Shown: one piece after another, positions 6,778 to 33,076 of the stretch | How positions within the stretch are numbered: the stretch's first letter is position 1 | How the letters are laid out: each line of letters starts with the position of its first letter | Assembly: GCF_900091445.1 (NCBI RefSeq) | Contig: NZ_LT607733.1 | Coordinates: forward strand, 2,868,501-2,932,500 | DNA length: 64,000 nt | Source of the DNA: Micromonospora echinofusca | Lineage (GTDB): Bacteria; Actinomycetota; Actinomycetes; Mycobacteriales; Micromonosporaceae | Direction of reading: 5' to 3' | Notes under the pieces: generated by a model | What the model was told of the DNA's origin: nothing | What the model saw: the letters and a program-made list of their open reading frames with translations, nothing else | The model's database searches: none | Made by a program: the position numbers and the translations under genes

Positions 6778-6862
6778 CCCGAAGTTAAGCGGATGTAAAC
6801 CGCGAGGTGGCGGCCCACCCATCGGGGCGGCGGCCACGGCCACGGCATAAGGAGAGTTGGAC

Positions 6863-8152
6863 GTGAGACGTCGATCAGTTATCGGGACTTCCCTGGCGAT
6901 GGTCGTCGCCCTCGGCCTGTCCGCCTGCGGTGGCGGCGGGGACGACGCCGGCGGCTCGAACACCGTCCGGGTCACGCTGGTGAACCACGTCTGGACGGAG
7001 AACATCAAGAAGGCGCTGCCGGAGTTCGAGAAGCAGTCGGGCCTGAAGGTGGAGGTCACCCAGCTCGGTGAGGACCAGCTCTCCGACCAGTACAACGTCA
7101 AGCTCAACGCCGGGTCCACCGACCTGGACGTGATGATGTACCGGCCGCTTCAGGAGGGGAAGCTGTTCGCCAAGAACAAGTACCTCGCCGACCTGACCGA
7201 GAAGAGCAAGTCGGACAGCGCGTTCGAGGTCGGTGACTTCCAGGCCGGGCCGGTGCAGGCGACCACGTACGAGGACAAGGTGGTCGGCGTGCCGATCATC
7301 ACCGAGCAGGAGGTCCTCTACTACCGCAAGGACCTGCTGGAGAAGTCCGGCTTCACCGCCCCGCCGAAGACCCTCGACGAGCTCAAGGCGCAGGCGGCGA
7401 AGGTCGAGGCGGACAACCCGGGCGTGGCGGGCTTCGTGGCCCGTACCGGCAAGTCGGCCGCGGTCACGCAGTTCTCCAGCTTCCTGTACAGCTTCGGCGG
7501 CGACTTCGTCGACGCCAGCGGCAAGGCCTCGGTCAACACCGAGCAGGCCAAGCAGGCGTACGCCTACTACGGCGGCCTGCTGCGCGAGCACGGCCCGGAG
7601 AACATCAGCACCGACATGAGCTGGTCCGAGGCGATGGCGATCTTCACCCAGGGCAAGGCGGCCTTCTACACCGAGGCCAACTCGCTCTACAAGAACGCCA
7701 CCGACCCGACCAAGTCGAAGGTCTCCGACACCGTCGGGTTCGCGGCCTTCCCGGCCGGCCCGGCCGGCTCGAAGCCGTACAACGTCCCCTCCTGGGCGCT
7801 CGGGGTCAACGAGGCGTCGAAGAACCAGGACAACGCCTGGAAGTTCATCCAGTGGGCGGCCGGCAAGGAGCAGGCGCTGGCGCAGCAGAAGGCCGGCGTG
7901 CCCAGCGCCCGTACCTCCGTCTGGGAGAACCCGGAGGGCGCCGCGACCTACCCGAAGGACCTCGCCGAGGCCACCACGGTCAGTACCGCCAACGGCGTGG
8001 GCCACGACCGTCCGCTGGTCGAGAAGGTCGCCCAGGCGCGGGAGATCGTCGGTCAGCCGATCGTCGACGCGATCACCGGCAAGGACGCGGCAGCCTCGGC
8101 GGACGCTGCCAACGAGGCGTTCCAGAAGTTCCTCGACGACGAGGCGAAGTAG
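6863..8152 (+). CDS. ABC sugar/sugar-acid binding lipoprotein
   Basis: 429 residues from GTG 6863, chosen over TTG 6857 because AAGGAGAG lies seven bases upstream. Lipobox LSAC with acylated Cys22, then a Gly/Asp spacer. The mature protein follows the SBP_bac_1 fold (family of maltose and multiple-sugar binding proteins), with the usual ALPEFEKQSGLKVEV first lobe and QDNAWKFIQWAAGKEQA near the end. It heads the operon with two permeases and catabolic enzymes for galactonate and mannonate, so the cargo is probably a hexonate, hexuronate or an oligosaccharide containing one. Confidence 0.9.
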   Translation: MRRRSVIGTSLAMVVALGLSACGGGGDDAGGSNTVRVTLVNHVWTENIKKALPEFEKQSGLKVEVTQLGEDQLSDQYNVKLNAGSTDLDVMMYRPLQEGKLFAKNKYLADLTEKSKSDSAFEVGDFQAGPVQATTYEDKVVGVPIITEQEVLYYRKDLLEKSGFTAPPKTLDELKAQAAKVEADNPGVAGFVARTGKSAAVTQFSSFLYSFGGDFVDASGKASVNTEQAKQAYAYYGGLLREHGPENISTDMSWSEAMAIFTQGKAAFYTEANSLYKNATDPTKSKVSDTVGFAAFPAGPAGSKPYNVPSWALGVNEASKNQDNAWKFIQWAAGKEQALAQQKAGVPSARTSVWENPEGAATYPKDLAEATTVSTANGVGHDRPLVEKVAQAREIVGQPIVDAITGKDAAASADAANEAFQKFLDDEAK

Positions 8153-8163
8153 CCCGAACCGCA

Positions 8164-8191
8164 GGTGGCGGAGCCGACCGGCTCCGCCACC
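8164..8191 (+). promoter_or_regulatory. Intercistronic stem-loop between binding protein and permease
   Basis: A 12-bp perfect stem (GGTGGCGGAGCC, loop GACC, GGCTCCGCCACC) twelve bases after the binding-protein stop. Such hairpins, like that between malE and malF, stabilise the upstream message and reduce permease expression. Confidence 0.6.
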
Positions 8192-8233
8192 GCGCGTCGG
8201 GACGCTGGCCCTGACCCCCACCCCGGAGACCTC

Positions 8234-9184
8234 ATGTCAGCCGTCACCACACCCGTCACACGATCGCCCGAGGCGCGCCCGCCGTCCCCCGAGACCCCGG
8301 CCTGGTCGCGCTGGGCCAACGAGCACCGCAAGTGGCTGTTCGCGGCACCCGCCATGATCTTCGTCGCGGTGCTGATCATCTTCCCGGTGGCGTGGACCGG
8401 ATACCTCAGCCTGACCGACGCCGAGGGCTCGGTCCGCGCCGAGAGCGAGTTCATCGGCTTCCAGAACTACCTCGACGTGCTCCGCGACACCGACCGGTTC
8501 TGGCCGGCCGTGTGGCGCACCGCGCTCTTCACCGGCGTCGTGCTCTTCTTCGAGGTCGTCCTCGGCATGGCGATCGCCCTGCTGCTGTGGCGGCCGTTCC
8601 GCGGTGAGAAGTGGGTCCGGGTCGCGATCCTCCTGCCGCTGGTGGCCACCCCGGTCGCGGTCGGCATGATGTGGCGGCTGATCTTCGACCCCAACATCGG
8701 GATGGCGAACCAGGTGCTCGGCTGGGTCGGCATCGGCCCGCAGCCCTGGCTCTCCGGGCAGAACTCGGCGCTGCCCACGACGATGTTCATCGACATCTGG
8801 CAGTGGACGCCGATGGTCGTGCTGATCCTGCTCGCCGGCCTGACGTCGCTGTCCGACGAGCCGCAGGAGGCGGCGCTGATCGACGGCGCCAGCACGTGGC
8901 AGCGGTTCCGGCACGTCACGCTGCCCCTGCTGATGCCCACCGTGATCGTGGCGATCCTGCTGCGCGGCATCGACGCGCTGAAGACCTTCGACATCCTCTA
9001 CGCCACCAAGGGGCGCGGCGGCGGGTCGTTCCACGAGGTGGAGACCCTCAACGTCTACGCCTACGGCCTCAGCTTCGACTACAACGACTACGGCGTCTCA
9101 TCGACCGTCCTCATCATCTTCTTCCTGATCATCATCGGGGTGATGTGGGCCCTGACCTACCGCAAGAAGGGGCTGAACCGATGA
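8234..9184 (+). CDS. ABC sugar permease, MalF type
   Basis: 316 residues from ATG 8234 (GGAGACC upstream). Six membrane helices, first at about 36-58 (WLFAAPAMIFVAVLIIFPVAW). The EAA loop that contacts the ATPase is EAALIDGASTWQRFRHVTLPLLMP at about 215-240. It pairs with the permease that overlaps its stop codon by four bases (ATGA). No ATPase gene is present in this operon; a shared MsiK/MalK-like ATPase is the usual actinobacterial solution. Confidence 0.92.
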   Translation: MSAVTTPVTRSPEARPPSPETPAWSRWANEHRKWLFAAPAMIFVAVLIIFPVAWTGYLSLTDAEGSVRAESEFIGFQNYLDVLRDTDRFWPAVWRTALFTGVVLFFEVVLGMAIALLLWRPFRGEKWVRVAILLPLVATPVAVGMMWRLIFDPNIGMANQVLGWVGIGPQPWLSGQNSALPTTMFIDIWQWTPMVVLILLAGLTSLSDEPQEAALIDGASTWQRFRHVTLPLLMPTVIVAILLRGIDALKTFDILYATKGRGGGSFHEVETLNVYAYGLSFDYNDYGVSSTVLIIFFLIIIGVMWALTYRKKGLNR

Positions 9185-9996
9185 AGCTGCGCAGGCCGTA
9201 CAAGGTCTTCCGGACGGTCGCCCTCGTCCTCGTGGTGCTGTCGCTGATCGCGCCGCTGGTCTGGATGGTCGCCGCGTCGTTGAAGACGAACGTCGACATC
9301 TACGACACCGAGAAGGCGTTCGTCTTCTCCCCGACGCTGGACAACTACTCCAACGTCCTCCAGCAGGCCAACTACATCCAGTTCATCGGCAACAGCCTCT
9401 GGGTGGCGCTCGCCGCCACCGTGCTGTCGCTGCTGCTCGGGGTGCCGGCCGCGTACTCGATGAGCCGCTTCAACATGAAGAAGTCGGCGCTGGTCGTGCT
9501 CATGGCGCGGGTCATCCCCGGCGTCTCGCTGCTGGTGCCCTGGTACTACGTCTTCTCGAACCTGCAGATGGTCGGCGGGTTCACCGTGCTGATCCTCAGC
9601 CACATGTTCGTGTCGCTGCCGCTGATCGTCTACATCATGATGGGCTACTTCGACGGCCTGCCGACCGAGCTCGAGGAGGCGGCGCTCGTCGACGGGCTGA
9701 CCCACATCGGCGCGTTCCGGCGGATCACCCTGCCGCTGTCGGTGCCGGGCATCGCCACCGCCGGCATCCTGTCGTTCATCTTCTCCTGGAACAACTTCAT
9801 GTTCGCCCTCGTGCTGTCCGGGGCCGACACCAAGACGCTCCCGGTGGCGATCTTCGACTTCGTCGGTTACGCCAGCATCGACTGGGGCGGCCTGATGGCG
9901 GCGGCGACCGTGGTCACCCTGCCGATCATGCTGATCGCCCTGTTCGTGCAGAAGTACGTCGTCTCCGGCCTCACCGCCGGCGCCACGAAGGGCTGA
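9181..9996 (+). CDS. ABC sugar permease, MalG type
   Basis: 271 residues. ATG 9181 overlaps the previous TGA. Six helices and the EAA loop EEAALVDGLTHIGAFRRITL at about 162-180, with the usual SFIFSWNNFMFALVLSG helix after it. It ends seven bases before galactonate dehydratase, which ties transport to catabolism in one transcript. Confidence 0.92.
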   Translation: MKLRRPYKVFRTVALVLVVLSLIAPLVWMVAASLKTNVDIYDTEKAFVFSPTLDNYSNVLQQANYIQFIGNSLWVALAATVLSLLLGVPAAYSMSRFNMKKSALVVLMARVIPGVSLLVPWYYVFSNLQMVGGFTVLILSHMFVSLPLIVYIMMGYFDGLPTELEEAALVDGLTHIGAFRRITLPLSVPGIATAGILSFIFSWNNFMFALVLSGADTKTLPVAIFDFVGYASIDWGGLMAAATVVTLPIMLIALFVQKYVVSGLTAGATKG

Positions 9997-10003
9997 GGAC
10001 ACC

Positions 10004-11152
10004 ATGACCACGATCGAACGGGTGGAGACCTTCCTCGTCGCGCCGCGCTGGCTCTTCGTCCGGGTCGAGACCGCCAGCGGGATCGTCGGCTGGGGCGAGG
10101 CGACCTGCGAGGGCCGCTCCGAGACCGTCCGCACCGCCGTCGAGCAGCTCAGCGAGCTGCTGATCGGCAAGGACGCGCTGCGCATCGAGGACCACTGGCA
10201 GGTCATGACCAAGGGCTCGTTCTACCGGGGCGGGCCGATCCTGGCCAGCGCCGTCGCCGGGCTCGACCAGGCGCTGTGGGACATCGCCGGCAAGCACTTC
10301 GGCGCGCCGGTGCACCAGTTGCTCGGCGGCCCGGTGCGCGACCGGATCCGGGTCTACGGCTGGGTCGGCGGCGACGAGCCGAGCGAGGTACGCGACCAGA
10401 TCGCCGCCGCCGTCGCCACCGGCCTGACCGCGGTGAAGATGAACGCCTCCGGCCGGATGAGCGCCGTCGCGTCCGTCGCCGAACTCGACGCCGTGGTGGC
10501 GCGGGTGGCCGCCGCCCGCGAGGTGCTCGGCGACGAGCGCGACGTGGCCGTCGACTTCCACGGCCGGTTCAGCCTCGCCACGGCCCGCCGGGTCGCCCCG
10601 CTGCTCGAGCCGTACCGGCCGTTCTTCCTGGAGGAGCCGGTGGTGCCGGAGAACTCGCACCTCATCGGCGAGTTCGTCCGCTCCACCACCACGCCGGTGT
10701 CGACGGGGGAGCGGCTCTACAACCGGCAGGAGTTCCTGCCGGTGCTCCAGGCGGGCATCGCGGTCGCCCAGCCGGACCTGTCGCACGCCGGCGGCATCAC
10801 CGAGGTCCGCAAGATCGCCGCGCTGGCCGAGGTGTACGACGCGCAGCTCGCCCCGCACTGCCCGCTCGGGCCGATCGCGCTCGCCGCCTGCCTCCAGGTC
10901 GGCTTCGCCACGCCGAACTACCTGATCCAGGAGCAGAGCATCGGCATCCACTACAACCTCGGCGCCGAGGTGCTGGACTACTGCCTCGACAAGACCCCGC
11001 TGACGTTCGTCGACGGGTACGTCGAGCGGCTCACCGCACCCGGCCTCGGCATCGAGATCGACGAGGACGCCGTACGCGCGGCGGACGAGCGCGGCCACGC
11101 GTGGCGCAGCCCCACGTGGCGCCACCGCGACGGCTCCTACGCGGAATGGTGA
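10004..11152 (+). CDS. dgoD: D-galactonate dehydratase
   Basis: 382 residues, the length of the E. coli enzyme, and recognisably colinear with it from the RWxFxxxET start to the WRHxDxSxAEW end. Enolase superfamily, mandelate racemase subgroup. Metal ligands Asp184 (VDFHGR), Glu210 (LEEP) and Glu236 (TGER), catalytic His186 and His285 (APHCPLGP) are all present, matching D183, E209, E235, H185 and H285 of E. coli DgoD. It removes water from D-galactonate to give 2-keto-3-deoxygalactonate. The ATG at 10004 is seven bases after the permease stop. Activity on a related hexonate cannot be excluded, but the match is close. Confidence 0.92.
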   Translation: MTTIERVETFLVAPRWLFVRVETASGIVGWGEATCEGRSETVRTAVEQLSELLIGKDALRIEDHWQVMTKGSFYRGGPILASAVAGLDQALWDIAGKHFGAPVHQLLGGPVRDRIRVYGWVGGDEPSEVRDQIAAAVATGLTAVKMNASGRMSAVASVAELDAVVARVAAAREVLGDERDVAVDFHGRFSLATARRVAPLLEPYRPFFLEEPVVPENSHLIGEFVRSTTTPVSTGERLYNRQEFLPVLQAGIAVAQPDLSHAGGITEVRKIAALAEVYDAQLAPHCPLGPIALAACLQVGFATPNYLIQEQSIGIHYNLGAEVLDYCLDKTPLTFVDGYVERLTAPGLGIEIDEDAVRAADERGHAWRSPTWRHRDGSYAEW

Positions 11153-11156
11153 TCAC

Positions 11157-11795
11157 ATGACCGTCAACCTCACCGCCGAACTGACCGCCGCCCGCATCCT
11201 CGCGATCATCCGCGGCACCGACACCGCCGCCGCGATCGCCGCCGGCACCGCCCTGCTCCAGGAGGGCGTACGCGTCGTCGAGGTGGCCCTGACCACCCCG
11301 GACGCCCTGCGCGCGATCGAGGCGCTGCGCGCCGCGGCCCCCGCCGGAGCGTCGGTCGGCGCCGGCACCGTGCTGACCACCGCCGACGTCGCGGACGTGG
11401 CCGCCGCGGGCGCGCAGTTCGTGGTGACGCCCGCCGTGGTCGAGTCGATCGCCGAGGCGGCCCGGCGCGGCCTGCCGGTCGCCGCCGGGGCGCTCACCCC
11501 GACGGAGGCGTACACGGCGGTGCGGATGGGGGCGTCGGCGGTCAAGCTCTTCCCGGCGTCGGTCGGCGGCCCCGCGTACCTCAGGGCGGTGCGCGACCCC
11601 TTCCCGGACATTCCGTTCGTCGCGGTCGGCGGCGTCGGCCTGGACGATGTGCCCGGCTACCTGCGGGCCGGCGCCATCGCCGTCGGCCTGGGCGGTCCCC
11701 TGGTCGGCGACGCCGCCTCCGGCGGCGACCTGGAGGCGCTGCGGGCGCGGGCGCGCACCTACCTCGCCGCCGTGCAGGAGCCGGCCGCGTCATGA
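11157..11795 (+). CDS. KDPG/KDPGal-type class I aldolase
   Basis: 212 residues. Schiff-base Lys130 in the signature VKLFPAS, catalytic Glu42 in VEVAL, GAGTVL at 68-73, and TPTE at 114-117. It cleaves 2-keto-3-deoxy-6-phospho-gluconate or -galactonate into pyruvate and glyceraldehyde 3-phosphate. The usual T-P-G of the phosphate side is TPA here (91-93), a mild variation. It starts four bases after dgoD and its stop overlaps the kinase start. Together with dgoD and the kinase it completes a DeLey-Doudoroff route. Confidence 0.9.
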
Positions 11796-12745
11796 CCGCA
11801 CCGGACCTGCTCACCGTCGGCGAGGCCCTGGTGTCGCTGCGCTCGGCCGGCCCGCTCGCCGCCGGGGGACCGCTGACGATGCACCTGGCCGGCGCCGAGT
11901 CCAACGTGGCCGTCGCGGTGGCCCGGCTGGGCCACCGCGCCGCCTGGGTCGGCCGCCTCGGCGCCGACGAGTTCGGCGAGTACGCGCTGCGGCAGCTGCG
12001 CGCCGAGGGCGTCGCCGTCGACGGCGTGACCCGCGACCCGGACCGGCCGACCGGCCTGATGTTCCTGGAGCGGCGCACCGCCGACCTGACCCGGGTGCAG
12101 TACCACCGGGCCGGCTCGGCCGGCTCCGCCCTCGACGTCGACGACCTGCGGGCGCCGCTGGCCGTCGGCGCGCGGACGCTGCACCTGAGCGGGATCACCC
12201 CGGCGCTGTCCGACACCGCCCGCGCGGCCACCCGGTGGGCGGCCGAGGCCGCCGTCGCCGCGGGCGTACCGGTCTGCCTCGACGTCAACCACCGCGGGCG
12301 CCTCTGGTCCCGCGACACCGCCCGCGAGGTGCTCACCCCGCTGGCCGGGTACGCCTCGATCGTCGTGGCCTCCGCCGACGAGCTGGACCTCGTCGGCGAC
12401 CCCGGGGCCGACGAGTCCACCGTCGTGGCGGACCTGCTGCGCCGCGGCGTGGACACGGTCCTGGTCAAGCTGGGCGGCGACGGCGCCCGCGCGCACACCC
12501 GCGAGGGCGTCGAGCGCGTCGGGGCGCTGAGCGTGACCGCCGTCGACGCCGTCGGCGCCGGGGACGCGTTCACCGCCGGCTACCTCTCCGGCTGGTTCGA
12601 CGGGCTCGACCTGGCCGGTCGGCTGCGCCGCGCCGCCACCCTCGGCGCCTTCGCGGTCTCCAGCCCCGGCGACTGGGAAGGGCTGCCGCGCCGCGCCGAA
12701 CTGTCCCTCCTCGACGGTCACGAGGCCGGAGACGTCCTCCGTTAG
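11792..12745 (+). CDS. PfkB-family 2-keto-3-deoxy sugar-acid kinase
   Basis: 317 residues. The ATG overlaps the aldolase stop (ATGA). Ribokinase fold: GEALVSL and [14 protein letters not shown] near the start, and the C-terminal PfkB signature [16 protein letters not shown] around residue 250 with the catalytic Asp of GAGD. It most resembles KdgK, which phosphorylates 2-keto-3-deoxygluconate; the operon supplies both the gluconate and galactonate epimers, so broad use of KDG and KDGal is likely. No DgoK-type kinase is present, so this gene must fill that step if the pathway is phosphorylative. Confidence 0.88.
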
Positions 12746-12777
12746 CCGCCGAGCACCCCGTAGAAGAAAGGCACCCC

Positions 12778-14007
12778 GTGAAGATCGTCGCCGCTGACGT
12801 CATCGTCTCCAGCCCCGACCGCAACTTCGTCACCCTGAAGATCACCACCGACGACGGCGTCACCGGCCTGGGCGACGGCACCCTCAACGGACGGGAACTC
12901 TCGGTCGCCTCGTACCTGCGCGACCACGTCGTGCCGCTGCTGATCGGCCGCGACGCGCACCGCATCGAGGACGCCTGGCAGTTCCTCTACCGCTCGGCGT
13001 ACTGGCGTCGCGGGCCGGTCACCATGGCCGCCATCGCGGCCGTCGACGTGGCCCTGTGGGACATCAAGGCCAAGGCCGCCGGCATGCCGCTGTACCAGCT
13101 GCTGGGCGGTGCGTCGCGCACCGGCATCATGGCGTACGGCCACGCCTCCGGCCGGGACCTGCCGGAGCTTTTCGACTCGATCCGCCGGCACCTCGAGCAG
13201 GGCTACCGTTCGATCCGCGTGCAGACCTCGGTGCCGGGCATCAACGCGGTGTACGGCGTCGCCACCCAGCCCAGCGCCGCCGGCAAGCGCTACGACTACG
13301 AGCCCGCTCAGCGCACCCCGCTGCCGGCCGAGGAGGACTGGGACACCCGCTCCTACCTGCGCCACCTGCCCGGCGTGTTCGAGGCCGTCCGCAACGAGTT
13401 CGGCCCGGAGCTGCCGCTGCTGCACGACGGCCACCACCGGATGACCCCCATCCAGGCCGCGAAGCTCGGCAAGGCGCTGGAGCCGTACGACCTGTTCTGG
13501 CTGGAGGACTGCACCCCGGCGGAGAACCAGGAGGCGCTGCGGCTGGTCCGCCAGCACACCACCACGCCGCTGGCGATCGGCGAGGTCTTCAACACCGTCT
13601 GGGACTACCAGACGCTCATCCGCGAGCAGCTCATCGACTACGTCCGCTCCGCCGTCACGCACACCGGCGGCATCACGGCCATGCGCAAGCTGCTCGACTT
13701 CGCCGCCCAGTACCAGATCAAGTCCGGCATCCACGGCCCGACCGACATCTCGCCGGTCGGGATGGCCGCCGCCCTGCACCTGGACCTGGCCATCCACAAC
13801 TTCGGCATCCAGGAGTACATGCAGCACGGGGCGCTCACCAACGAGGTGTTCCGGCAGTCGTTCACCTTCGCCGACGGCTACCTGCACCCGGGGGAGCAGC
13901 CCGGGCTCGGCGTCGAGCTGGACGAGGAGGCCGCCGCGAAGTTCCCGTACGTGCCGGCGTACCTGCCGTTCAACCGGCTCCAGGACGGCACGGTCCATGA
14001 CTGGTGA
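12778..14007 (+). CDS. manD: D-mannonate dehydratase, enolase superfamily (ManD)
   Basis: 409 residues from GTG 12778, with AGAAAGG eight bases upstream. ManD family, not UxuA. Arg147 and Tyr159 fall at the same numbers as the catalytic pair of the Novosphingobium enzyme; metal ligands Asp217 (HDGHHR), Glu243 (LEDCTP) and Glu269 (IGEVF), then His319 in [11 protein letters not shown], and the C-terminal HDW. It dehydrates D-mannonate (some members also D-gluconate) to 2-keto-3-deoxygluconate, the substrate of the kinase just upstream. It overlaps gluconokinase by 11 bases. Confidence 0.9.
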
Positions 14008-14545
14008 GACCGTCGCGCCCCCGACGCGGCACGTGGTCGTCATGGGGGTGTCCGGGGCCGGCAAGACGACCGTGGCCCGGGGCATCGCCGCCCGTACCGG
14101 ACTGATCTTCGCCGAGGCCGACGAGTTCCATCCGCCGGCCAACGTGGCGAGCATGCGGGCCGGCGTGCCGCTGGACGACGTGGCGCGCCTGCCCTGGCTG
14201 CGCGATCTCGCCGGCTGGATGGCCGCGCGCGCCGCCGACGGCGTGTCGACGGTGCTGGCCTGCTCGGCGCTGAAGCGCTCCTACCGCGACACGCTGCGCC
14301 AGGGGCCGCCGAGCGTCGAGTTCGTCCACCTGGACGGCGCGGCCGAGGTGATCCGGGAGCGGATGGCCCGCCGCGCCGGGCACTACATGCCGCCGAGCCT
14401 GCTGGCGTCGCAGCTGGCCACCCTGGAACAGCCCCACCCGGACGAGTCGGTGCTGGTGCTGGACGTGGCGCTGACGCCGGACGAGCTCGTCTCGGCGGCG
14501 GTCGACCGGCTCGGCCTGGCGCGCGGCGTCGCCGCCAACGGCTGA
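13997..14545 (+). CDS. gntK: Gluconokinase
   Basis: 182 residues. P-loop GVSGAGKTT at 18-26; the diagnostic GntK stretch [15 protein letters not shown] then GVPLDD and RLPWL at about 43-75; and [10 protein letters not shown]. It phosphorylates D-gluconate to 6-phosphogluconate. It is the last gene of the sugar-acid operon, so gluconate enters the pentose phosphate pathway while galactonate and mannonate go through the keto-deoxy branch. A terminator hairpin follows. Confidence 0.92.
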
Positions 14546-14667: not shown

Positions 14668-15084
14668 TCAGTCGGGCGACCCGTCGAGGTAGACCCAGCG
14701 GCCCTCCTCGCGGACGAACCGGCTGCGCTCGGTCTGCGTGCCCGGCCGGCCGCCGGCACGGTGGTGGGCCCGGAACTCGACGGTGCCGGTGGCGTCGAAC
14801 AGCCCGCCCCGGTCGGTGTCGACGATCTCCAGGCCCGTCCAGCGCTGGCCGGGATCGAGGTCGAGCCGGCCCGGTCGGGTCGAGGAGTGCCAGCTGCGCA
14901 GCAGGTACGCGGTGTCGCCGACGGCGAAGGCGCTGTAGCGCGAGCGCATCAGCGCCTCGGCCGTCGCCGCTTCCGCCTCGCCCCGGTGCAGCCGCCCGCA
15001 GCATCCCGCGTACGGCTGGCCGGAGCCGCAGGGGCAGGGCCGGTCAGGGTCGTCGGCCGCCCGCCGGCGGGGTCGCTTCGCCAC
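14668..15084 (-). CDS. YchJ-family SEC-C motif protein
   Basis: 138 residues from GTG 15084. N-terminal SEC-C zinc motif CPCGSGQPYAGCCG (Cys-x-Cys, then Cys-Cys; residues 17-30), followed by the YchJ signature AEALMRSRYSAFAVGDTAYLLRSWH and a cystatin/NTF2-like domain ending in EEGRWVYLDG. The UPF0225 family is widespread and its role is not established. It stands alone, convergent with gntK. Confidence 0.88.
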   Translation of the reverse strand: MAKRPRRRAADDPDRPCPCGSGQPYAGCCGRLHRGEAEAATAEALMRSRYSAFAVGDTAYLLRSWHSSTRPGRLDLDPGQRWTGLEIVDTDRGGLFDATGTVEFRAHHRAGGRPGTQTERSRFVREEGRWVYLDGSPD

Positions 15085-15231
15085 CGGCCCATTCTGGCCG
15101 ACGGCCCGGCGCGGCCGGCGTCCGGACCCGACCGCCGTCCGCGCGCGGGCCGGTGCGCGCGGCGGACGGCCGACCGGGACGGCACGACGCGTGGCTCCGG
15201 CCGACCGTCGCCCGGGCGTCGTGGTCCCGGC

Positions 15232-15603
15232 TCAGCCGGCGCTCGTCCGGGGTGCCCGTCGGGTGCCGAACGACTCCATGGTCGTCGCCTTGCGGGCGGG
15301 GGCCTTCGAGGCCGCGCCGGCGCGGGTCGCCGCGGCCTTCGCCGCCTTCCTCGCGGGTGCCTTCTTCGCCGGCGCTGCCGTGGCGGGCGCCTTGCGGGCG
15401 CGGGCCGGGGTCGCCGTGGCGGAGGTGTCCTTCTTCCGGGCCACGCGGGCGGTCGTCGGGGTCGGCTTCTCCCCCGGGGACCTGGCCGCGGTCGCCCCGG
15501 TGGCCCGCTTCGTGGCCGTCGCCACCTTCTTCGCCGCCGCCGCCCGCTTCATCGGGGCCTTGCGCGCCCCGGTGGCCTTCCTGGCCCGTCCTGCGTCCGC
15601 CAT
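15232..15603 (-). CDS. Lys/Ala-rich histone H1-like nucleoid protein
   Basis: 123 residues from ATG 15603 with GAGGAG six bases upstream. Nearly the whole protein is Ala, Lys, Arg, Thr and Pro in AKKA, ARKAP and KKAPARKAAKAA blocks, the composition of bacterial H1-like or HU C-tail proteins that bind DNA non-specifically. There is no HU fold and no acidic stretch. The frame is believable because the codon third position stays GC-rich and the ribosome site is good, but low complexity makes it less certain than its neighbours. Confidence 0.6.
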   Translation of the reverse strand: MADAGRARKATGARKAPMKRAAAAKKVATATKRATGATAARSPGEKPTPTTARVARKKDTSATATPARARKAPATAAPAKKAPARKAAKAAATRAGAASKAPARKATTMESFGTRRAPRTSAG

Positions 15604-15646
15604 CGTCGCTCCTCGGGAATCGGCCCTGGGCGCACGGTCTTCCCCC

Positions 15647-15672
15647 GGCCCCGGCGGTCAAACGCCGGGGCC
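15647..15672. terminator. Stem-loop downstream of the dioxygenase-like operon
   Basis: GGCCCCGGCG (15647-15656), loop GTCAAA, CGCCGGGGCC (15663-15672); perfect 10-bp stem 40 bases past the methyltransferase stop on the minus strand. Confidence 0.7.
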
Positions 15673-15712
15673 GACGCGGCGCGGGAGCCGGCCCGGCCCC
15701 CGCGCGGTCGCG

Positions 15713-16744
15713 TCACGTCCCGGTCGCCGGCTTGTACGCGCAGACCAGTTCCCAGCCGCCGGGCAGCACCCTCACCCGCTCGAAGCCGACCTCCTTGAGC
15801 AGGCCGGTGTAGAACTCGACCTCCCGCAGCCGGCTCACACAGGTGTCGACCCCGATGAGGAAGTAGCTCCAGAAGAACTGCATCGCCAGCCGGTCCGGGG
15901 TGCGGAACTCCTCGCAGATCAGCAGCATCCCGCCCGGCTCCAGGGCCGCGTACGCCTTCTCCACCAGCCGGCGGGTGACCTCGTTCGGCCAGTCGTGCAG
16001 CACCCGGACGAACGCCATGGCGTCGTAACCCGGCGGCAGCGGCTCGGCGAGGAAGTCCCCGCCGACGAAGCCGAGCCGGCCGACGTGCCCCCGCTCGGCC
16101 CGGGTGGCCGCCACCAGCGGCGCCACGGCCGGCAGGTTGTACACGTCGACCCGCAGCCCCGGGGCGTCGTCGAGGACGTGCGCGGCGAGCGTGCCGTCGC
16201 CCCCACCGACGTCCAGCAGGCGGCGCCGGTCCGACCACAGCCGGTCGGCGTTGCGGTGCACGGCCTCGATCACCGGGCCGAGACCGACGGCCATGCTGCG
16301 TTCGAAGTCGGCGGTCTGCGCATCGGTCTTCGGCGGCCAGGCGAAGTCGTCGTCGCCCATGCTGACCTCGCCGCGCAGGCTCTCGCCCAGCCGGCCGTGC
16401 AGCCGCCGCCAGGGGTAGCGGTCCCGGTCCCGCTCGATGGCGTCGGGGCCGACCACCGCCGCCACGGCGTCGCGCAGGCCGGGCGCCGCCCGGTACGTGG
16501 CCGAGGCGAGGTCGTCGCCCGGTTCGTTGCGCGCGACGAAGCCGAGGCTCTCCAGGCAGTCGAGGAACTTGTAGAGCCGCAGGGGCCGCACGTCGAAGCG
16601 CTCGGCGAGCGCGCCGAGGCTGACCGGCCCCGGCTCCAGGGCGTCGAGCAGGCCCATGCCGAGCGCGGTCTCCAGGACGTCCATGGCCTTGGGCCCGTTG
16701 GCGAGCAGGCTCATCAGCGCCCGCGGCGACAGGGTGACGTTCAC
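15713..16744 (-). CDS. SAM-dependent methyltransferase with N-terminal winged helix
   Basis: 343 residues from GTG 16744, which overlaps the stop of the PLP enzyme (GTGA). An N-terminal dimerisation/winged-helix part (about 1-110, LSPRALMSLLANGPKAMDVL, LGALAERFDVRPLRLYKFLD) precedes a class I Rossmann fold with SAM motif LLDVGGGDGTLAAHVL at about 180, then GDF and AFVRVLHDWPNE, EPGGMLLICEE. This is the architecture of small-molecule O-/C-methyltransferases of secondary metabolism, including the 3-hydroxykynurenine methyltransferases of actinomycin- and sibiromycin-type pathways. Context with two tryptophan-dioxygenase-like proteins makes a tryptophan-derived substrate plausible. Last gene of its operon. 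Confidence 0.85.
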   Translation of the reverse strand: MNVTLSPRALMSLLANGPKAMDVLETALGMGLLDALEPGPVSLGALAERFDVRPLRLYKFLDCLESLGFVARNEPGDDLASATYRAAPGLRDAVAAVVGPDAIERDRDRYPWRRLHGRLGESLRGEVSMGDDDFAWPPKTDAQTADFERSMAVGLGPVIEAVHRNADRLWSDRRRLLDVGGGDGTLAAHVLDDAPGLRVDVYNLPAVAPLVAATRAERGHVGRLGFVGGDFLAEPLPPGYDAMAFVRVLHDWPNEVTRRLVEKAYAALEPGGMLLICEEFRTPDRLAMQFFWSYFLIGVDTCVSRLREVEFYTGLLKEVGFERVRVLPGGWELVCAYKPATGT

Positions 16745-17913
16745 CGGTCCAGCTCCTCTTCCAGCGCGTCCATGAATGCGTCGATCTCCTCTAGGGTGTT
16801 GTAGACGTGCGGGCCGATGCGCAGGTAGCCCCGCCAGCTGCAGACCATGTCCCGCGCGGCCAGTCGCCGCTTGACCGCCTCGCCGTCGGCGACGTCGAGG
16901 CAGACCACGCCGCCGCGCCGGTGCGGCTCGACCGGGCTGACCACGCTGATGCCGGCCGCCGCCGCCCGCTGGAGGACCCGGGACGTGCAGGCGAGCGAGT
17001 GCCGCCGGATCGCGGCGGCGCCCACCCCCGCCAGCAGGTCCAGCCCGACCTGGGAGACCAGCGAGGTGAGGGGGTACGGCGTCCCGCCGGCGAAGCGCCG
17101 GGCGCCGGGCGCCCAGCCCGCCGACGGCTGGAAGGTCAGTGCCCGGTCGCCGGCCTGCCAGCCGGTGGCCGCCGGTTCCAGCCGGGCCGCCAGGTCCGGG
17201 CGGACGTACAGGAAGGCGGTGCCGACTCCGCACAGCCACTTGTGCGCGCCGCCGAGGACGACGTCGACGCCGAGCGCCGTCACGTCCAGCGGCACGACGC
17301 CGACGGTCTGGAAGGCGTCGACGACCACCAGGGCGCCGACGTCGTGGGCGCGGCGGACCAGTCGGGGCAGGTCGATGGTGGCGCCGGAGGAGAAGCTGGC
17401 GTGCGGGACGCACACGAGCAGCGTCCGCTCGTCGATCCGCGCTTCGAGGGCGTCCTCGTCGAAGTGCGGGCCGCCCGAGGAGACGACGTCGAGGCGCGCG
17501 CCGTAGCGGCGGAACGCGGTGAAGATGAACGGCACGGTCGGGTACTCCAGGTCGGTGGTGACGACCCGGTCGCGCGGCGCGCGGTAGTCGAAGCAGGACG
17601 CCACCCGGGCGAGCAGGGTGCTCAGGTTCGCGTCGGTGACCACGCTGCCCGGTGGCGCACCGATGAGGGCGGCGATCGAGTCGGCGTACCGGTCGAGGCC
17701 GACGTGCCAGTCCTGCCAGACGTCGTCGCGCCAGCCGCGCAGCGTCTCCCAGTAGTCGGTGAGCACGTGCTCCGCGCCCCTGGGCACCGCCCCGGTGGAG
17801 TTGTTGTTCAGGTAGACACAGGTGGACAGCAGCGGGAACTCGGCGCGCAGGGCGGCATGGGCTCCGGCGTCGAGGCACCCGGGCGTGTCGGGTGCCGGTT
17901 CGGGCGAGGTCAT
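16741..17913 (-). CDS. Class V aminotransferase-fold PLP enzyme
   Basis: 390 residues from ATG 17913, overlapping the gene upstream by four bases. PLP-binding features: Asp in VVVDAFQTVG (about residue 200) and the Schiff-base Lys in GGAHKWLCGVGTAFLYVRP (about 225-243). N-terminal CVYLNNNSTGAVPRG is the class V substrate loop. It lacks the YKYLN-GPG lysine motif of standard kynureninases, and is nearer the isopenicillin N epimerase/desulfurase-like branch. In an operon with two tryptophan 2,3-dioxygenase relatives, a kynureninase-like cleavage or a transamination is the natural guess; the chemistry is not shown by sequence. Confidence 0.82.
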   Translation of the reverse strand: MTSPEPAPDTPGCLDAGAHAALRAEFPLLSTCVYLNNNSTGAVPRGAEHVLTDYWETLRGWRDDVWQDWHVGLDRYADSIAALIGAPPGSVVTDANLSTLLARVASCFDYRAPRDRVVTTDLEYPTVPFIFTAFRRYGARLDVVSSGGPHFDEDALEARIDERTLLVCVPHASFSSGATIDLPRLVRRAHDVGALVVVDAFQTVGVVPLDVTALGVDVVLGGAHKWLCGVGTAFLYVRPDLAARLEPAATGWQAGDRALTFQPSAGWAPGARRFAGGTPYPLTSLVSQVGLDLLAGVGAAAIRRHSLACTSRVLQRAAAAGISVVSPVEPHRRGGVVCLDVADGEAVKRRLAARDMVCSWRGYLRIGPHVYNTLEEIDAFMDALEEELDR

Positions 17914-19253
17914 TCGGGGCTGCCTCCGCTCGGTCCGGTCCCCGAGGAGGGATCCGGGTCGGGGGTGACGGAGCTGAAGACCGGGATGGACCGCACGGCG
18001 GCCAGGTAGGGCGTGCCCTCGGTGTAGCCGGTGCCGGGGCGCGGCCCGAGCATCCGGGTGGCCAGCCGGTGGTGGGTACGCCGCCACTGGAGCACGGCCG
18101 CCGCGAACGCGCCCATGGCCCGGGCCACCAGGTCGACGTCCGCCCCGGTGAGCGAACCCGCGCGCACCGCGGCCCGGAACGCCTCGTCGATTGACGGCTG
18201 CCCGGCGTGCACCCGGTCGCGTACCTCCGGCACCTGCTCGTAGGCGGGCGACTCCAGCCGCGCCGCCTCCGGGGTGCGGCACAGCGACTCCATCAGCTTG
18301 TAGGAGCGGGACTGGATGGCGCTGGCCCCCTCGGTGTACTGACGGAACGTCCGGAACGCCGCCGGCTGCATGGTGGCCAGCAGCGAGAACAGCGGCCCGG
18401 CGGCGGTGAGGAGCTGACAGCCGTACGCCAGCCGGTCGGCCGCCACCCGCGCCCGACCGGCGGCCAGGGCGGCGATCGTGGCCCGCAGTTCGTCGACGAG
18501 CCCCGCGAAGAGGCACTCGTACGCCTGGAGCACCCGGATGAACAGGTACTCGTCGTGCGAGACGTAGACCGGCAGCATGCTCAGCCACAGTGCCGGCTCC
18601 CCGGCGGGGGCGCGGTCGGCGGCGAGGGCGCGCAGCACGGCCGCCGGCTCCTGGGCCGCCCCGGCCAGGCCCAGGCGGGCGAGGGCGGGGGCCGCGGCCC
18701 GTACGCCGAGCCGGTGCCGCTTGGCCACCACCTCCCGGCCCGGCCGGTCCTCGGGCAGCAGGTCGGTGGCCTCCGACGCGGCGGCCGCCTCGAACGCCAG
18801 CGCGTCGGCGACCAGGCGGACGAGCAGCCGGTCGCGGTCGCGGCGGGCGCGGTCGGGGTGTGCGGCCGGCCCGCCGGCGGGCACCGCCTCCGTGCTGCCC
18901 GGCCGGTCGTCCGCGCCGCAGGGCTCGTCGTCCGCGCCGCCCGGCCCGTCGTCCCGTCCGTCGTCCGCCCCGCAGGGCAGCCGGAGTAGGCGCAGCGCCA
19001 GGTAGCTGCGGTAGTCGTAGCGGCCGTCCCACTTGTCGAGCGCGACGTCGAGGAAGTCGCGCAACTGCCGGACCGCGGGCGTGGGCGGGTCGGGGGCCGG
19101 GGCGGTCACCTGGGCCCGGACGTGGTCCAGCAGCGCCAGGAGCTCCTTTTCCACGAAGTGTTTGCCGACCCGGTGGAACTCGGCCAGCACGGGAGAATAG
19201 GGAAAATCGTCCGCCTCGGCGGCACCCGACATCCAACTCGTCAGTTCACGCAC
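17910..19253 (-). CDS. Divergent tryptophan-dioxygenase-superfamily haem protein, enlarged
   Basis: About 447 residues; GTG 19253 has GAGG eight bases upstream, while GTG 19262 in frame would add three residues. The C-terminal half aligns with tryptophan 2,3-dioxygenase: SHDEYLFIRVLQAYECLF (TDO: HRDELLF..HQ..ELW), then FRQYTEGASAIQSRSYKLME, and near the end LQWRRTHHRLATRMLGPRPGTG, which keeps the proximal haem His (about 394) and the GTG loop. The distal His of TDO is Leu here (VLQ instead of xHQ). A GADD-rich low-complexity insert at about 100-130 and an extra N-terminal helical part make it much longer than TDO. Probably a haem enzyme with altered chemistry. Confidence 0.78.
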   Translation of the reverse strand: MRELTSWMSGAAEADDFPYSPVLAEFHRVGKHFVEKELLALLDHVRAQVTAPAPDPPTPAVRQLRDFLDVALDKWDGRYDYRSYLALRLLRLPCGADDGRDDGPGGADDEPCGADDRPGSTEAVPAGGPAAHPDRARRDRDRLLVRLVADALAFEAAAASEATDLLPEDRPGREVVAKRHRLGVRAAAPALARLGLAGAAQEPAAVLRALAADRAPAGEPALWLSMLPVYVSHDEYLFIRVLQAYECLFAGLVDELRATIAALAAGRARVAADRLAYGCQLLTAAGPLFSLLATMQPAAFRTFRQYTEGASAIQSRSYKLMESLCRTPEAARLESPAYEQVPEVRDRVHAGQPSIDEAFRAAVRAGSLTGADVDLVARAMGAFAAAVLQWRRTHHRLATRMLGPRPGTGYTEGTPYLAAVRSIPVFSSVTPDPDPSSGTGPSGGSPE

Positions 19254-19333
19254 GAACCGCACCTCGACATTCGGCTCGTGTCAACCGTGGACGGGGAGAC
19301 AATTGAAAAATTGAGGGGTGGGCGGGGATTGCG

Positions 19334-19360
19334 GCGACCGCTCGGCACGGGAACGGTCGC
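19334..19360 (-). terminator. Hairpin between the two dioxygenase-like genes
   Basis: GCGACCG (19334-19340) pairs with CGGTCGC (19354-19360) just past the stop of the first gene. A short stem; more likely an attenuator or mRNA stabiliser inside the operon than a full stop. Confidence 0.35.
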
Positions 19361-19362
19361 TT

Positions 19363-20037
19363 TCACCCGTGCAGGGTCTTCACGCGGGCCTGCCACAGTT
19401 CCGGGAAGAACCGGTGCCCGATGAGCTTGGCGAGCACGGTCGCCTCGGCGCCGTCGGGGGCGTGCCCGCCGACGCGCAGGGCGGCCTGGTAGTGCCGCAC
19501 CCGCCACAGCGACACCCGCTCGTCCCACTCCATCATCGCCTCGGCGAGCAGGTGGACGGGGTCGGTCGGGTCCGCCCGGCGCAGCTCGGCCAGGGCGGTG
19601 CCGTGCGCGGCGAGGTGGTCGGTGAACGCCAGGCCGAGCTGCCGGCTGGCCGCCTGGACCCGCCGCCAGCCCGGCGACTCGGCGCCGGAACCCTTGCCCA
19701 GTGCGGGCTGCATGGCCTCGAAGGCGGCCGGGGAGAGGTGTCGGAACATCTCCAGCTGGTCGGTGATCAGCCGTACCCCGAGGGTCGCCCGGGTCAGCAG
19801 CGGCCCGGCCGCCGCGGGTTCGCCGGCGCGGATCCGGGCGACCGCCTCGGTCAGCTCGGCCGCCGCGAGCTTCAGCCACAGCTCGGTGGACTGGTGCACC
19901 ACCTGGAAGAGCAGCTCGTCGCGGTGGATCATCTCCGCCGGGCTCCGTTGCAGGTCGAGCAGCGCGTCCGTGCGCATGTAGCGCGCGTAGTCCGTGGCGC
20001 CGTCGCCAGGTAGAACAGGTGAGTGGTCCCGCTTCAC
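19363..20037 (-). CDS. Tryptophan 2,3-dioxygenase-like haem protein
   Basis: 224 residues from GTG 20037, chosen because GAAGGGGAC lies seven bases upstream; ATG 20106 has no ribosome site and overlaps the promoter. TDO features: DYARYMRTDALLDLQ (12-26), HRDELLFQVVHQSTELWLKL with distal His, a middle ITDQLEMFRHLSP, and WRVRHYQ with the proximal His. The usual R-x-GTGG-S loop that grips the amino-acid carboxylate is replaced by RVGGHAPDGAEATVL, and the middle FR..ASGFQS segment is changed, so it is not a textbook TDO. A first oxidative step on tryptophan or an analogue, feeding the genes downstream, is likely. Confidence 0.8.
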   Translation of the reverse strand: MKRDHSPVLPGDGATDYARYMRTDALLDLQRSPAEMIHRDELLFQVVHQSTELWLKLAAAELTEAVARIRAGEPAAAGPLLTRATLGVRLITDQLEMFRHLSPAAFEAMQPALGKGSGAESPGWRRVQAASRQLGLAFTDHLAAHGTALAELRRADPTDPVHLLAEAMMEWDERVSLWRVRHYQAALRVGGHAPDGAEATVLAKLIGHRFFPELWQARVKTLHG

Positions 20038-20104
20038 GGAATTGTCCCCTTCGGTCGGCGTCGCTGCGTCGGGAACCGTCGGCCCGACAGCGCGTGCGGC
20101 GGCC

Positions 20105-20134
20105 ATTATGCAACGACGAAAGGCAATGTGTCAC
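20105..20134 (-). promoter_or_regulatory. Promoter of the dioxygenase-like operon
   Basis: On the minus strand GTGACA (20134-20129), 18-bp spacer, CATAAT (20110-20105); start expected near 20098, leaving about 60 bases of leader. The surrounding 20100-20270 is the most AT-rich stretch nearby and otherwise holds no gene. Confidence 0.5.
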
Positions 20135-20282
20135 GCCTCCGTCGCGGGCCGTGTCCGACTCCGGAAAGGGGAGGTTTCCGCCATTTTCTGCGATACATAA
20201 AGGCGGCGGAATAGCACATAGATCAACATGGGTCAATAGCGGTGGGCGGCTGACATGTCACACGGCCGCCGGCGGCCGTGTC

Positions 20283-20975
20283 TCACCAGGGCGACGGTGG
20301 CGGCACGACCGGCGGTCGGTCCTCGCAGGTGATGGTGTTGGGCAGTTGCCACGGGGCCAGCCAGCCGCCGTCGTTGCCGCCGAGATCGGTGAGGGCGAAC
20401 TCCGAGCCGGTCGCCGGGAAGTTGAACGACCCGCAGTTGTTGACGCCGACGGCGCCGACGTTGCGGGCGTCGACGTTGCGCAACGAGGCCGAGCCCGCCG
20501 CGCGGGCGCTCAGCACGGAGGTGCCCGTGCCGTCGACCCGGATGTCCTGGAACCGGACGCCGGTGATCGAGTGGAGGTCCTTCACCGGCCAGTCGCTGAC
20601 CAGCATGATGGCGTTGTACGTGTTGTCGAGGTAACTGTCCCCGATCACGTCGACGGTCGCGTCGATGTCCCGGTCGAGCGCGTAGAACCAGATGGCCCCC
20701 AGCCCGATCTACCAGTTCAGCTCGTACGTGCCGGCGCGGGCGGTGGTGTTGCCGGTGATCAGCAGCCGCCCGGTGAAGGGCTCGTTGAACTCGTCGAACA
20801 TCGACACGCGGCCCTGGGCGCCGAGCCGGGTCATGCGGCCAGGTCGGGGACGTTGACGTTGGTGTGGAACCAGTCGAGCCCGTCGAGGGTGCAGGTGCGG
20901 CCGACCATCCACGGCGAGAGCATGTGGAACGCGTGGTAGACCTCGGAGAAGCCCGGCCGGGAGTCGTGGGGCGGC
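20283..20975 (-). pseudogene. Fused remnants of two secreted glycosidase genes
   Basis: Three pieces on the minus strand. 20975 to 20834: PGFSEVYHAFHMLSPWMVG and LDWFHTNVNVPDLAA, a segment of GH71/GH99-like glycosidases, ending at a TGA. From 20834, in another frame: TRLGAQGRVSMFDEFNEP, which in such enzymes lies some tens of residues further on, so an internal piece is deleted. This runs straight into FTGRLLITGNTTARAGTYELNW, a beta-helix (GH87/mycodextranase-like) sequence. TAG at 20711-20709 then interrupts the frame, after which GDSYLDNTYNAIMLVSDWPV to NTITCEDRPP continues in the same frame to 20283. Family names come from memory of typical sequences; the broken state is seen directly. Confidence 0.65.
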
Positions 20976-20980
20976 GGGGC

Positions 20981-21022
20981 CCGTGACGGGAGCGGGCCGG
21001 TGCACGCCCGCCCCCGTCACGG
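20981..21022 (-). terminator. Strong stem-loop ending the ten-gene operon
   Basis: 17-bp stem (20981-20997 with 21006-21022), a single mismatch, eight-base loop, two bases past the LLM oxidoreductase stop. Confidence 0.8.
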
Positions 21023-31546: not shown

Positions 31547-32083
31547 ATGCTCGGTGACCAGCTCCGCGACCTGCGCCAGCAGCACTCCCTCACGCTGCGC
31601 CAGCTCGCGGCCGCGGCCGACGTGTCGCCCGCCCTGCTCAGCCAGATCGAGAACGGCGCCACCGACCCCAGCCTGGCCACCCTGCGTAAGCTCGCCAAGG
31701 TCTTCGACACCTCCATAGCGGCGCTGTTCTCCGAGCCGGACGCCCCGCTGGTGCACATCAGCCGGCCCGGCTCGCGGTCCCGGCTCGCCGCGCCCCCCGG
31801 GCAGATCGCCTACGACCGGCTCACGCCGGGGCGGGGCGACCTGGAGGTGCTCGAAGCCGAGCTGGCGCCCGGCGACGCCAGCTCCACCGAGCCGTGGGCG
31901 CACCCCTCGACCGAGTGCGCCATCGCCGTCACCGGCGAGGTGGTGGCCGAGATCGGCGGCGAGAAGTACGTGCTGAAGACCGGCGAGGCGATCACCTTCG
32001 ACTCCCGGCTGCCCCACCTCTACCGCAACGCCAGCGACCAGCGGGCCCGGCTCATCATCGCGGTCACCCCGCCGACCCCCTGA
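31547..32083 (+). CDS. XRE-family regulator with C-terminal cupin domain
   Basis: 178 residues from ATG 31547 (GAGGAAAG upstream). Helix-turn-helix at about 5-60: LRDLRQQHSLTLRQLAAAADVSPALLSQIENGATDPSLATL. Cupin barrel at about 105-170 with EPWAHPSTECAIAVTGEVVAEIGGEKYVL and GEAITFDSRLPHLYRN. Members of this type (PuuR-like) sense small amines or amino acids and control their catabolic genes. It sits between the two arms of the peptide/imino-acid locus. Confidence 0.9.
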   Translation: MLGDQLRDLRQQHSLTLRQLAAAADVSPALLSQIENGATDPSLATLRKLAKVFDTSIAALFSEPDAPLVHISRPGSRSRLAAPPGQIAYDRLTPGRGDLEVLEAELAPGDASSTEPWAHPSTECAIAVTGEVVAEIGGEKYVLKTGEAITFDSRLPHLYRNASDQRARLIIAVTPPTP

Positions 32084-32155
32084 CCCACCCGGCACGTCGT
32101 CCGGCCCGCGTCGCGCACGTGGGCGGTACGACGCCGCCCGTCGAAAGGACCCGCA

Positions 32156-33076
32156 GTGGACCGTGACAGCGTCGACTGGTTCGGCTACCTCCCGGCCGTC
32201 ACCACCCCGTTCACCGCCACGGGCGAGCTGGACCTCGCCGCCTGGCGCGGGCAACTGGACTGGCTCGCCGCCGAACGGATGCACGGGCTGATCGTCGGCG
32301 GGACCACGGGCGAGTGGTTCAGTCTCAGCGAACAGGAACGGGCCGCGCTGTTCCGGGCGGCCGCCGACCGGGTCGGCGACCGGCTCACGGTGCTCGGCGG
32401 CTGCAACGCGTACACCCCGGCGGAGGCCATCCGGCACGCCGAGGCCGCCCGCGACGCCGGCCTGCACGGCATCCTGCTCACCCCGCCGCCGTACGTGGTG
32501 CCCACCCGGGCCGAGGTGGTGGCCTTCTACCGGGCCGTCTCCGAGGCGGTCGACATCCCGCTCTGCGTCTACAACTGGCCCCGCGGCACCGGCGTCGACC
32601 TGGACGCCGACCTGCTGCTGGAGCTGAGCGCGCTGGACACCGTGGTGGCGGTCAAGAACTCCACCCCGGACTTCGGCGGGTTCGTCCGTGGTCTGGTCGC
32701 CCTGCGGCACCGCGTGCGCTACTTCGGCATCCCCACCAACGAGGTGGGCATCGAGCTGATGACCACCATCGGCGGCGACGGACTGATGGGGGCCGGCGCC
32801 GTGCTCGGCGCCGACCACCCCGACTTCTTCCGCGCCCTGCGCGCCGGCGACCTCGACCGGGCCCGGGTCCTCGGCGCGCGCGACCGGGTGATCATGGAGG
32901 ACTGGTTCGGGCCGGACTACGGCGCCCGGTTCGGCAACGCGCAGGCGATCATGAAGTACGCGCTCACCCTGCGCGGCGTGCCGGCCGGGCACGTCCGCGC
33001 GCCGCTGCTCCCGCTGACCCCCGCCGAGCAGGACCGCGTCCGGGCCACCATGACCCAGCTCGACCTGCTCCCATGA
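32156..33076 (+). CDS. DapA-superfamily class I lyase, possibly pyrroline-hydroxycarboxylate deaminase
   Basis: 306 residues from GTG 32156. Dihydrodipicolinate-synthase fold: GGTTGEWFSLSEQER (about 42-56), YNWPRGTGVDL with the catalytic Tyr (about 138), and Schiff-base Lys in VVAVKNSTPD (about 165). Its stop overlaps the FAD oxidase start. In Pseudomonas, trans-4-hydroxyproline breakdown uses a D-hydroxyproline dehydrogenase of three subunits plus a DapA-family deaminase (LhpC); the same four gene types occur here in a row. Other keto-acid aldolases of the family remain possible. Confidence 0.8.
   Translation: MDRDSVDWFGYLPAVTTPFTATGELDLAAWRGQLDWLAAERMHGLIVGGTTGEWFSLSEQERAALFRAAADRVGDRLTVLGGCNAYTPAEAIRHAEAARDAGLHGILLTPPPYVVPTRAEVVAFYRAVSEAVDIPLCVYNWPRGTGVDLDADLLLELSALDTVVAVKNSTPDFGGFVRGLVALRHRVRYFGIPTNEVGIELMTTIGGDGLMGAGAVLGADHPDFFRALRAGDLDRARVLGARDRVIMEDWFGPDYGARFGNAQAIMKYALTLRGVPAGHVRAPLLPLTPAEQDRVRATMTQLDLLP

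Follow-up and report, generated by a model that had tools for sequence, protein, structure and literature searches.

In the actinomycin and sibiromycin pathways to 4-methyl-3-hydroxyanthranilate, a tryptophan 2,3-dioxygenase (TDO), a pyridoxal phosphate (PLP) enzyme and a methyltransferase are found together. Another haem protein of the TDO superfamily, MarE, is the 2-oxindole-forming oxygenase of maremycin, and we know of no second TDO-like gene beside it. Here we analyse an operon with two such haem proteins, found in a 64,000-nucleotide stretch of the 7.0-Mb genome of the soil actinomycete Micromonospora echinofusca (contig NZ_LT607733.1, positions 2,868,501 to 2,932,500; hereafter the window). 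It lies on the minus strand of the window and consists of four co-oriented genes in the order TDOs-TDOL-KYN-MT:

19363..20037, minus strand: TDOs, single-domain TDO/MarE-like haem protein, 224 amino acids from a conserved GTG
17910..19262, minus strand: TDOL, enlarged TDO-superfamily haem protein, 450 amino acids (447 from the conserved GTG start at 19253)
16741..17913, minus strand: KYN, kynureninase-like class-V PLP enzyme, 390 amino acids
15713..16744, minus strand: MT, S-adenosylmethionine methyltransferase of the Methyltransf_2 family, 343 amino acids

Like the actinomycin and sibiromycin gene sets, the operon has TDO-like, PLP enzyme and methyltransferase genes, but it lacks a flavin hydroxylase and a formamidase, carries a second haem protein instead, and its PLP enzyme is not a bona fide kynureninase. 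With bacterial TDO both haem proteins share the Pfam family PF03301 and the equivalents of the haem His and of Phe51; in a tree, however, a long branch separates TDOs from the other two TDO that the genome encodes, and both proteins score low with the TDO model TIGR03036. The predicted model of TDOs is closest to MarE, yet the identity is 24%, and where MarE has Arg118 the TDOs of this operon type have Gln or Lys. The TDOL model aligns with both IDO and PrnB over residues 17–435, although the identity is only 12–17%. As in IDO, its distal residue is not a histidine (Ser167 in IDO, with an S167H mutant named in a structure title; we take Ser167 to be equivalent to the distal position of TDOL).

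We tentatively read the locus, with a confidence somewhat short of even, as a self-contained specialised-metabolism operon in which two unlike, His-ligated haem oxygenases oxidise a tryptophan-derived amino acid. This reading draws on the genes, their order, conservation, linkage and residue patterns, and on modelled folds for both haem proteins; we infer every reaction, and likewise the order of the reactions, tryptophan as the precursor and the product. TDOs, a one-domain protein of the MarE/TDO type, would attack the indole ring first. TDOL would then carry out a second oxygenation on an intermediate still bearing its amino-acid head, because the Arg and Thr that hold this head in TDO are kept; KYN would cut or rearrange the side chain, and MT would cap the product by methylation. 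As the TDOs-TDOL pair recurs in many bacteria with varying partners, it probably builds small molecules from tryptophan. Each of the proteins belongs to a known superfamily; the apparent novelty, which we have not found described, is that a MarE-like and an IDO/PrnB-like protein are so often paired, and that the pair is reused with four kinds of tailoring genes. A search of the open-licence PubMed Central literature returned no description of the pair.

Recurrence of the operon and of the haem-protein pair

A preliminary description of this DNA had proposed a compact operon, with short gaps or overlaps, in which a PLP enzyme and a methyltransferase accompany two haem proteins of the TDO superfamily; both the Pfam assignments and the coordinates agree with it, and the PLP enzyme is of class V. 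TDOs and TDOL each pass the cut-off of Trp_dioxygenase (PF03301), KYN passes those of Aminotran_5, KYNU_C and Cys_Met_Meta_PP, and MT passes that of Methyltransf_2 (PF00891, 79.3 bits). KYN/TDOL and MT/KYN overlap by 4 bp each, and the only gap, between TDOs and TDOL, spans 100–109 bp depending on the start chosen. Although the surrounding region is GC-rich, this gap (19254–19362) contains an AT-rich stretch in which CAATT/CAATTG is repeated. In comparisons with three relatives the ratio of nonsynonymous to synonymous substitution rates was 0.12–0.55, i.e. below 1 in 12 of 12 cases.

Among 20 loci of the same family, the complete set in the order of the window is present in 13, and a further one is cut off by a contig end behind TDOL. 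Two of the 20 have TDOL and KYN fused into one open frame:

L035:6692-9175, strand not given: TDOL-KYN continuous open frame, 827 amino acids
L036:7782-10163, strand not given: TDOL-KYN continuous open frame, 793 amino acids

Scanning named genomes with a profile gave 97 confirmed TDOL relatives, 80 of which were kept (with strains shared with the 20-locus set). The arrangement TDOs-KYN-TDOL occurs in 38 of these loci, TDOs-TDOL-KYN-MT (the four-gene type) in 22 and TDOs-TDOL in 6, of which one lies at the end of a contig; TDOL stands alone in 10, and 4 are arranged otherwise. The preliminary description was to be refuted if the two TDO-like genes never co-occurred. They do co-occur, as 69 of the 80 loci have TDOs in the flank fetched around TDOL; the other 11 are the 10 lone-TDOL loci and L118. 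KYN accompanies the pair in 63 of the 69 TDOs-bearing loci (counting one fragment, one distant, divergent gene and one that is weak and broken). The operon also appears to be self-contained: with flanking genes called by our own GC-frame gene finder (none were called in L114 and L121), no further gene family was found in more than 5 of the 24 named four-gene-type loci, and we rejected a larger cluster around it on this ground. Judged by their titles, most of the records come from Actinomycetota and four (L083, L091, L103, L121) from Chloroflexota; Microvirga has TDOL alone and Cysteiniphilum has TDOs-KYN-TDOL. The module is rare across the phylum: a TDOL profile at E 1e-60, with few candidates scored per genome, found it in 3 of 396 genomes, among them the genome of the window itself and another from its genus.

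Elsewhere in the genome a TDO (307 bits), a kynureninase (407.4 bits, above its cut-off) and a flavoprotein nearest VioC (best family VioC, 157 bits against a cut-off of 760) lie side by side, which we read as the housekeeping set, and a further, separate TDO scores 216.6 bits. With such a set elsewhere, including a bona fide kynureninase and a VioC/KMO-like flavoprotein next to a TDO, the operon is unlikely to be housekeeping tryptophan degradation, and ordinary kynurenine degradation was rejected on account of this second set. It is thus highly improbable that the locus serves ordinary degradation of tryptophan, driven from a second promoter. Databases do name the family tryptophan 2,3-dioxygenase and the parts are kynurenine-pathway-like; however, with TIGR03036 TDOs reaches 97.1 and TDOL 69.6 bits, compared with 307 for the genome's TDO, the distribution is patchy (at E 1e-100, 51 of 160 genomes of the genus have MT, one copy each), and the methyltransferase would have no evident place. 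That TDOs and TDOL stay below the TIGR03036 cut-off (390.7 bits) says little by itself, because the other two TDO of the genome miss it too.

Active-site residues of TDOs and TDOL

The predicted models of both haem proteins match TDO, MarE, IDO and PrnB and thus have the TDO-superfamily fold. For residue comparisons we presume the Xc TDO numbering (F51, R117, T254) and the residue roles attached to it; the position of His55 follows from alignments to solved structures and from the titles given to 3bk9 and 3e08. The proximal haem His is present in 70 of 70 TDOs and in all 80 TDOL having the column (one broken TDOL copy is gapped there), and the distal His55 equivalent is kept in all 69 TDOs having it. 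The carboxylate-binding Arg117 separates the TDOs by operon type: it is Arg in 44 of 44 sequences outside the four-gene type (those having the column), but Gln (23/25) or Lys (2/25) within it. The TDOs as a whole form a clade well separated from the genome's two other TDO, though on long branches; all 25 four-gene-type TDOs are a single clade (support 100/99). At the position of the MarE SLGGR loop the TDOs relatives printed in the alignment have a GTxGS-like stretch, which is shortened in the window copy and in L046, so that a MarE-type SLGGR loop is missing from TDOs. These residues, as we read them, suggest that the four-gene-type TDOs holds something different, or holds its substrate differently, and together with the best fit of its model to MarE they speak against the ordinary tryptophan dioxygenase that had been proposed for it. 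According to the MarE literature, mutating the Arg weakens binding (KD from 4.6 to 24–54 uM), the loop helps to decide between one- and two-oxygen chemistry, and the pocket is partly formed by the neighbouring subunit.

TDOL shows a different pattern. It scores 61.3 bits with PF03301 (best stretch 235–335), is nearest to TDO by sequence, with only TDO chains matched among solved structures, and its model (predicted local distance difference test 87.7) aligns with TDO over residues 207–439. The window copy keeps the His397 ligand, Arg307 and Thr411, while Leu245 replaces the distal His; across the family the distal position is Leu and the carboxylate Arg is retained in 81 of 81 TDOL each, and the GTG beginning of the loop is kept in all 80 having it. 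With this Arg and the loop GTG, TDOL looks able to bind a free amino acid. The model points to an IDO/PrnB-type build without a distal His. A PrnB-like ring rearrangement by TDOL as the key step, with later methylation of the resulting aminophenyl-pyrrole-like or otherwise rearranged compound, nevertheless seems very unlikely to us: IDO scores the same within 1, identity to PrnB is 12–14%, and KYN would be left with no clear task. A tyrosine-hydroxylase type (SfmD, LmbB2) was also considered for TDOL and set aside; only PF03301 was matched, and no such chain is among the matches listed, an absence that is not evidence.

The complementary residues of the two proteins could also mean that TDOs and TDOL are subunits of one mixed oligomeric oxygenase sharing pocket residues, which we regard as unlikely. 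The genes are adjacent in the four-gene type and in the loci linked to nonribosomal peptide synthetases (NRPS), in which KYN was not found; in the four-gene type TDOs keeps the distal His and TDOL the carboxylate Arg. Moreover, the Tyr pair aligned with the N-terminal pocket region of MarE, to which a neighbouring subunit contributes, is kept in 69 of 69 TDOs with the column and mostly in TDOL (75/81 and 81/81). On the other hand, both proteins keep a haem ligand and pocket of their own, TDOs outside the four-gene type has both the His and the Arg (44/44), and TDOL occurs without a flanking TDOs in 11 of 80 loci.

KYN, MT and the candidate product

By sequence, the solved structure closest to KYN is the kynureninase 1qz9 (E 3.1e-37), and the preliminary description had taken it for a kynureninase. 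This identity is not supported: KYN reaches 71.8 bits with the kynureninase model TIGR01814 (cut-off 246.4), far from the 407.4 bits of the genome's other kynureninase. In an alignment of 64 module copies (the L065 fragment excluded), PLP Lys225, PLP Asp199 and carboxylate Arg365 are retained throughout, as in the bona fide kynureninase. In contrast, Asp132, His204 and Tyr226 (P. fluorescens numbers), whose roles in kynureninase we presume, are Val127, Gln202 and His224 in the window copy; among the 64 copies D, H and Y occur only in L118, a locus without TDOs, as they do in the genome's bona fide kynureninase. The Gln and His match the residues of an aligned cysteine desulfurase at the same positions. 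Since three kynureninase residues are replaced, we name KYN kynureninase-like only and assign no reaction to it. MT is closest to RedM among solved structures (84.9 bits), and the suggested likeness to a sibiromycin-type methyltransferase is weak, as SibL, a C-methyltransferase acting on C4 of 3-hydroxykynurenine, matches only part of the protein with 58.5 bits.

These data bear on the route suggested by the actinomycin and sibiromycin pathways, in which TDOs would form N-formylkynurenine, TDOL would hydroxylate kynurenine, MT would methylate and KYN would cleave to 3-hydroxy-4-methylanthranilate or a similar compound. The parts resemble that set except for the flavin enzyme and the formamidase, the nearest structure of KYN is a kynureninase, SibL is among the MT matches, and TDOL keeps the amino-acid-holding residues. 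Still, we think this route improbable: KYN carries Val, Gln and His at Asp132, His204 and Tyr226 and scores far under the kynureninase cut-off, TDOs is without Arg117, the SibL match is weak, and the operon has no formamidase. Furthermore, a flavin adenine dinucleotide (FAD) aromatic hydroxylase (own clustering, family c4) lies directly behind TDOL in 22 loci. Because this hydroxylase coexists with TDOL, TDOL is not simply a replacement for a flavin hydroxylase, contrary to what had been proposed; this family, like the cyclase and aminotransferase families below, is named from one scanned representative.

Several observations also weigh against the two-oxygenase reading that we favour. Family resemblance is all that points to tryptophan as the precursor, and other members of the haem superfamily are described in the literature as using tyrosine. 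The four-gene-type TDOs lacks the carboxylate Arg in 25 of 25 copies and its loop is shortened in the window and L046; therefore it may not accept free tryptophan or may not act first. KYN is without three residues of kynureninase. Moreover, 10 of the 80 loci, as well as L118, have TDOL with no flanking TDOs; TDOs is therefore not required in every case.

Partner genes, transcription signals and other genes of the window

In addition to the FAD hydroxylase, a cyclase/arylformamidase-like family occurs in 22 loci and a class-IV aminotransferase in 17, with ATP-grasp proteins near many. The pair sits in a larger cluster in L078 (5515-19013) and in some 20 loci like it, together with ATP-grasp, FAD hydroxylase, class-IV aminotransferase, cyclase, HemK-like methyltransferase, PNPOx-like and MFS-like proteins. 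NRPS genes flank the pair in L068 (three genes scanned), relatives of these flank it in L075 and L092, and on a plasmid of Streptomyces sp. NBC_01006 TDOs-TDOL lies among NRPS genes. A bacterial nitric oxide synthase (NOS) was found near TDOs-KYN-TDOL in 7 of the 80 loci, all in Micromonospora (L105, L107, L109, L116, L117, L119 and L122), and on a Micromonospora zamorensis plasmid NOS and globin genes are followed by TDOs-KYN-TDOL-MFS:

L105:11185-12414, strand not given: nitric oxide synthase near the TDOs-KYN-TDOL core
L134:2431-3690, strand not given: nitric oxide synthase, plasmid copy, near the TDOs-KYN-TDOL core

The L105 protein matches a solved NOS with 274 bits; both the RCIGR stretch and the substrate glutamate, to which we ascribe their usual roles, are present in it. 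NOS was not found in the window or in L111. The NOS-linked loci (7 of 80 and one plasmid locus) recall the NOS nitration clusters of thaxtomin and rufomycin, whereas the window has no NOS.

It is possible, if rather unlikely, that TDOs-TDOL forms the core of an undescribed class of tryptophan-product pathways, working in tandem or as a mixed complex, mainly in Actinomycetota with some Chloroflexota and one gammaproteobacterium. Its tailoring would vary between a methyltransferase, an FAD hydroxylase with ATP-grasp ligases, NRPS and NOS, and the NOS version would nitrate without a P450 by consuming nitric oxide. If our reading of the operon is right, the four-gene type offers a compact, clonable route and the tailoring variants a natural series that tests what makes TDO-superfamily haem enzymes insert one oxygen, insert two or rearrange the ring. 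Residues ready for such tests are the Arg of TDOs, whose exchange for Gln/Lys goes with the four-gene type throughout the sequences examined, and the invariant distal Leu of TDOL. We expect that standard genome-mining rules may overlook the four-gene type, because we saw neither an NRPS nor a polyketide synthase conserved beside it.

Upstream and downstream of the operon we found the following elements:

20105..20134, minus strand: promoter-like element GTGACA-18-CATAAT, 10/12 consensus matches
15640..15712, minus strand: GC-rich double hairpin behind MT, -59 kcal/mol, z -3.25

The single promoter of the preliminary description fits this promoter-like element, which is the sole match in 15000–21000 (0.1 expected from shuffles). 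In an upstream alignment without L051 and L055, the -35 hexamer GTGACA or TTGACA at similar spacing occurs in 10 of 23 four-gene-type regions (window included) and the core CGTTG in 18 of 23, with L058, L066, L067 and L071 the most divergent; the region upstream of TDOs thus looks like a promoter partly conserved among relatives. The TDOs frame, which ends at 19363, is open up to an ATG at 20106, but the GTG at 20037 is the likelier start, because this GTG and the GA-rich stretch preceding it are conserved among the aligned regions and the -10 box touches the ATG. As for the terminator claimed behind MT, the terminator scan returned no T-tailed one there, while two strong hairpins are present (1 of 200 shuffles folds equally well) and are the probable transcript end; the scan did not list them because they have no T tract.

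Two further groups of genes stand out in the window. Positions 6857–14545 resemble a cluster for sugar-acid uptake and breakdown, with two enolase-superfamily enzymes, a KDPG/KHG aldolase and, by eye, transporter- and kinase-like genes around them. At 31547–36033, a regulator-like gene precedes a dihydrodipicolinate-synthase-family enzyme and an FAD oxidoreductase, a combination reminiscent of hydroxyproline breakdown.

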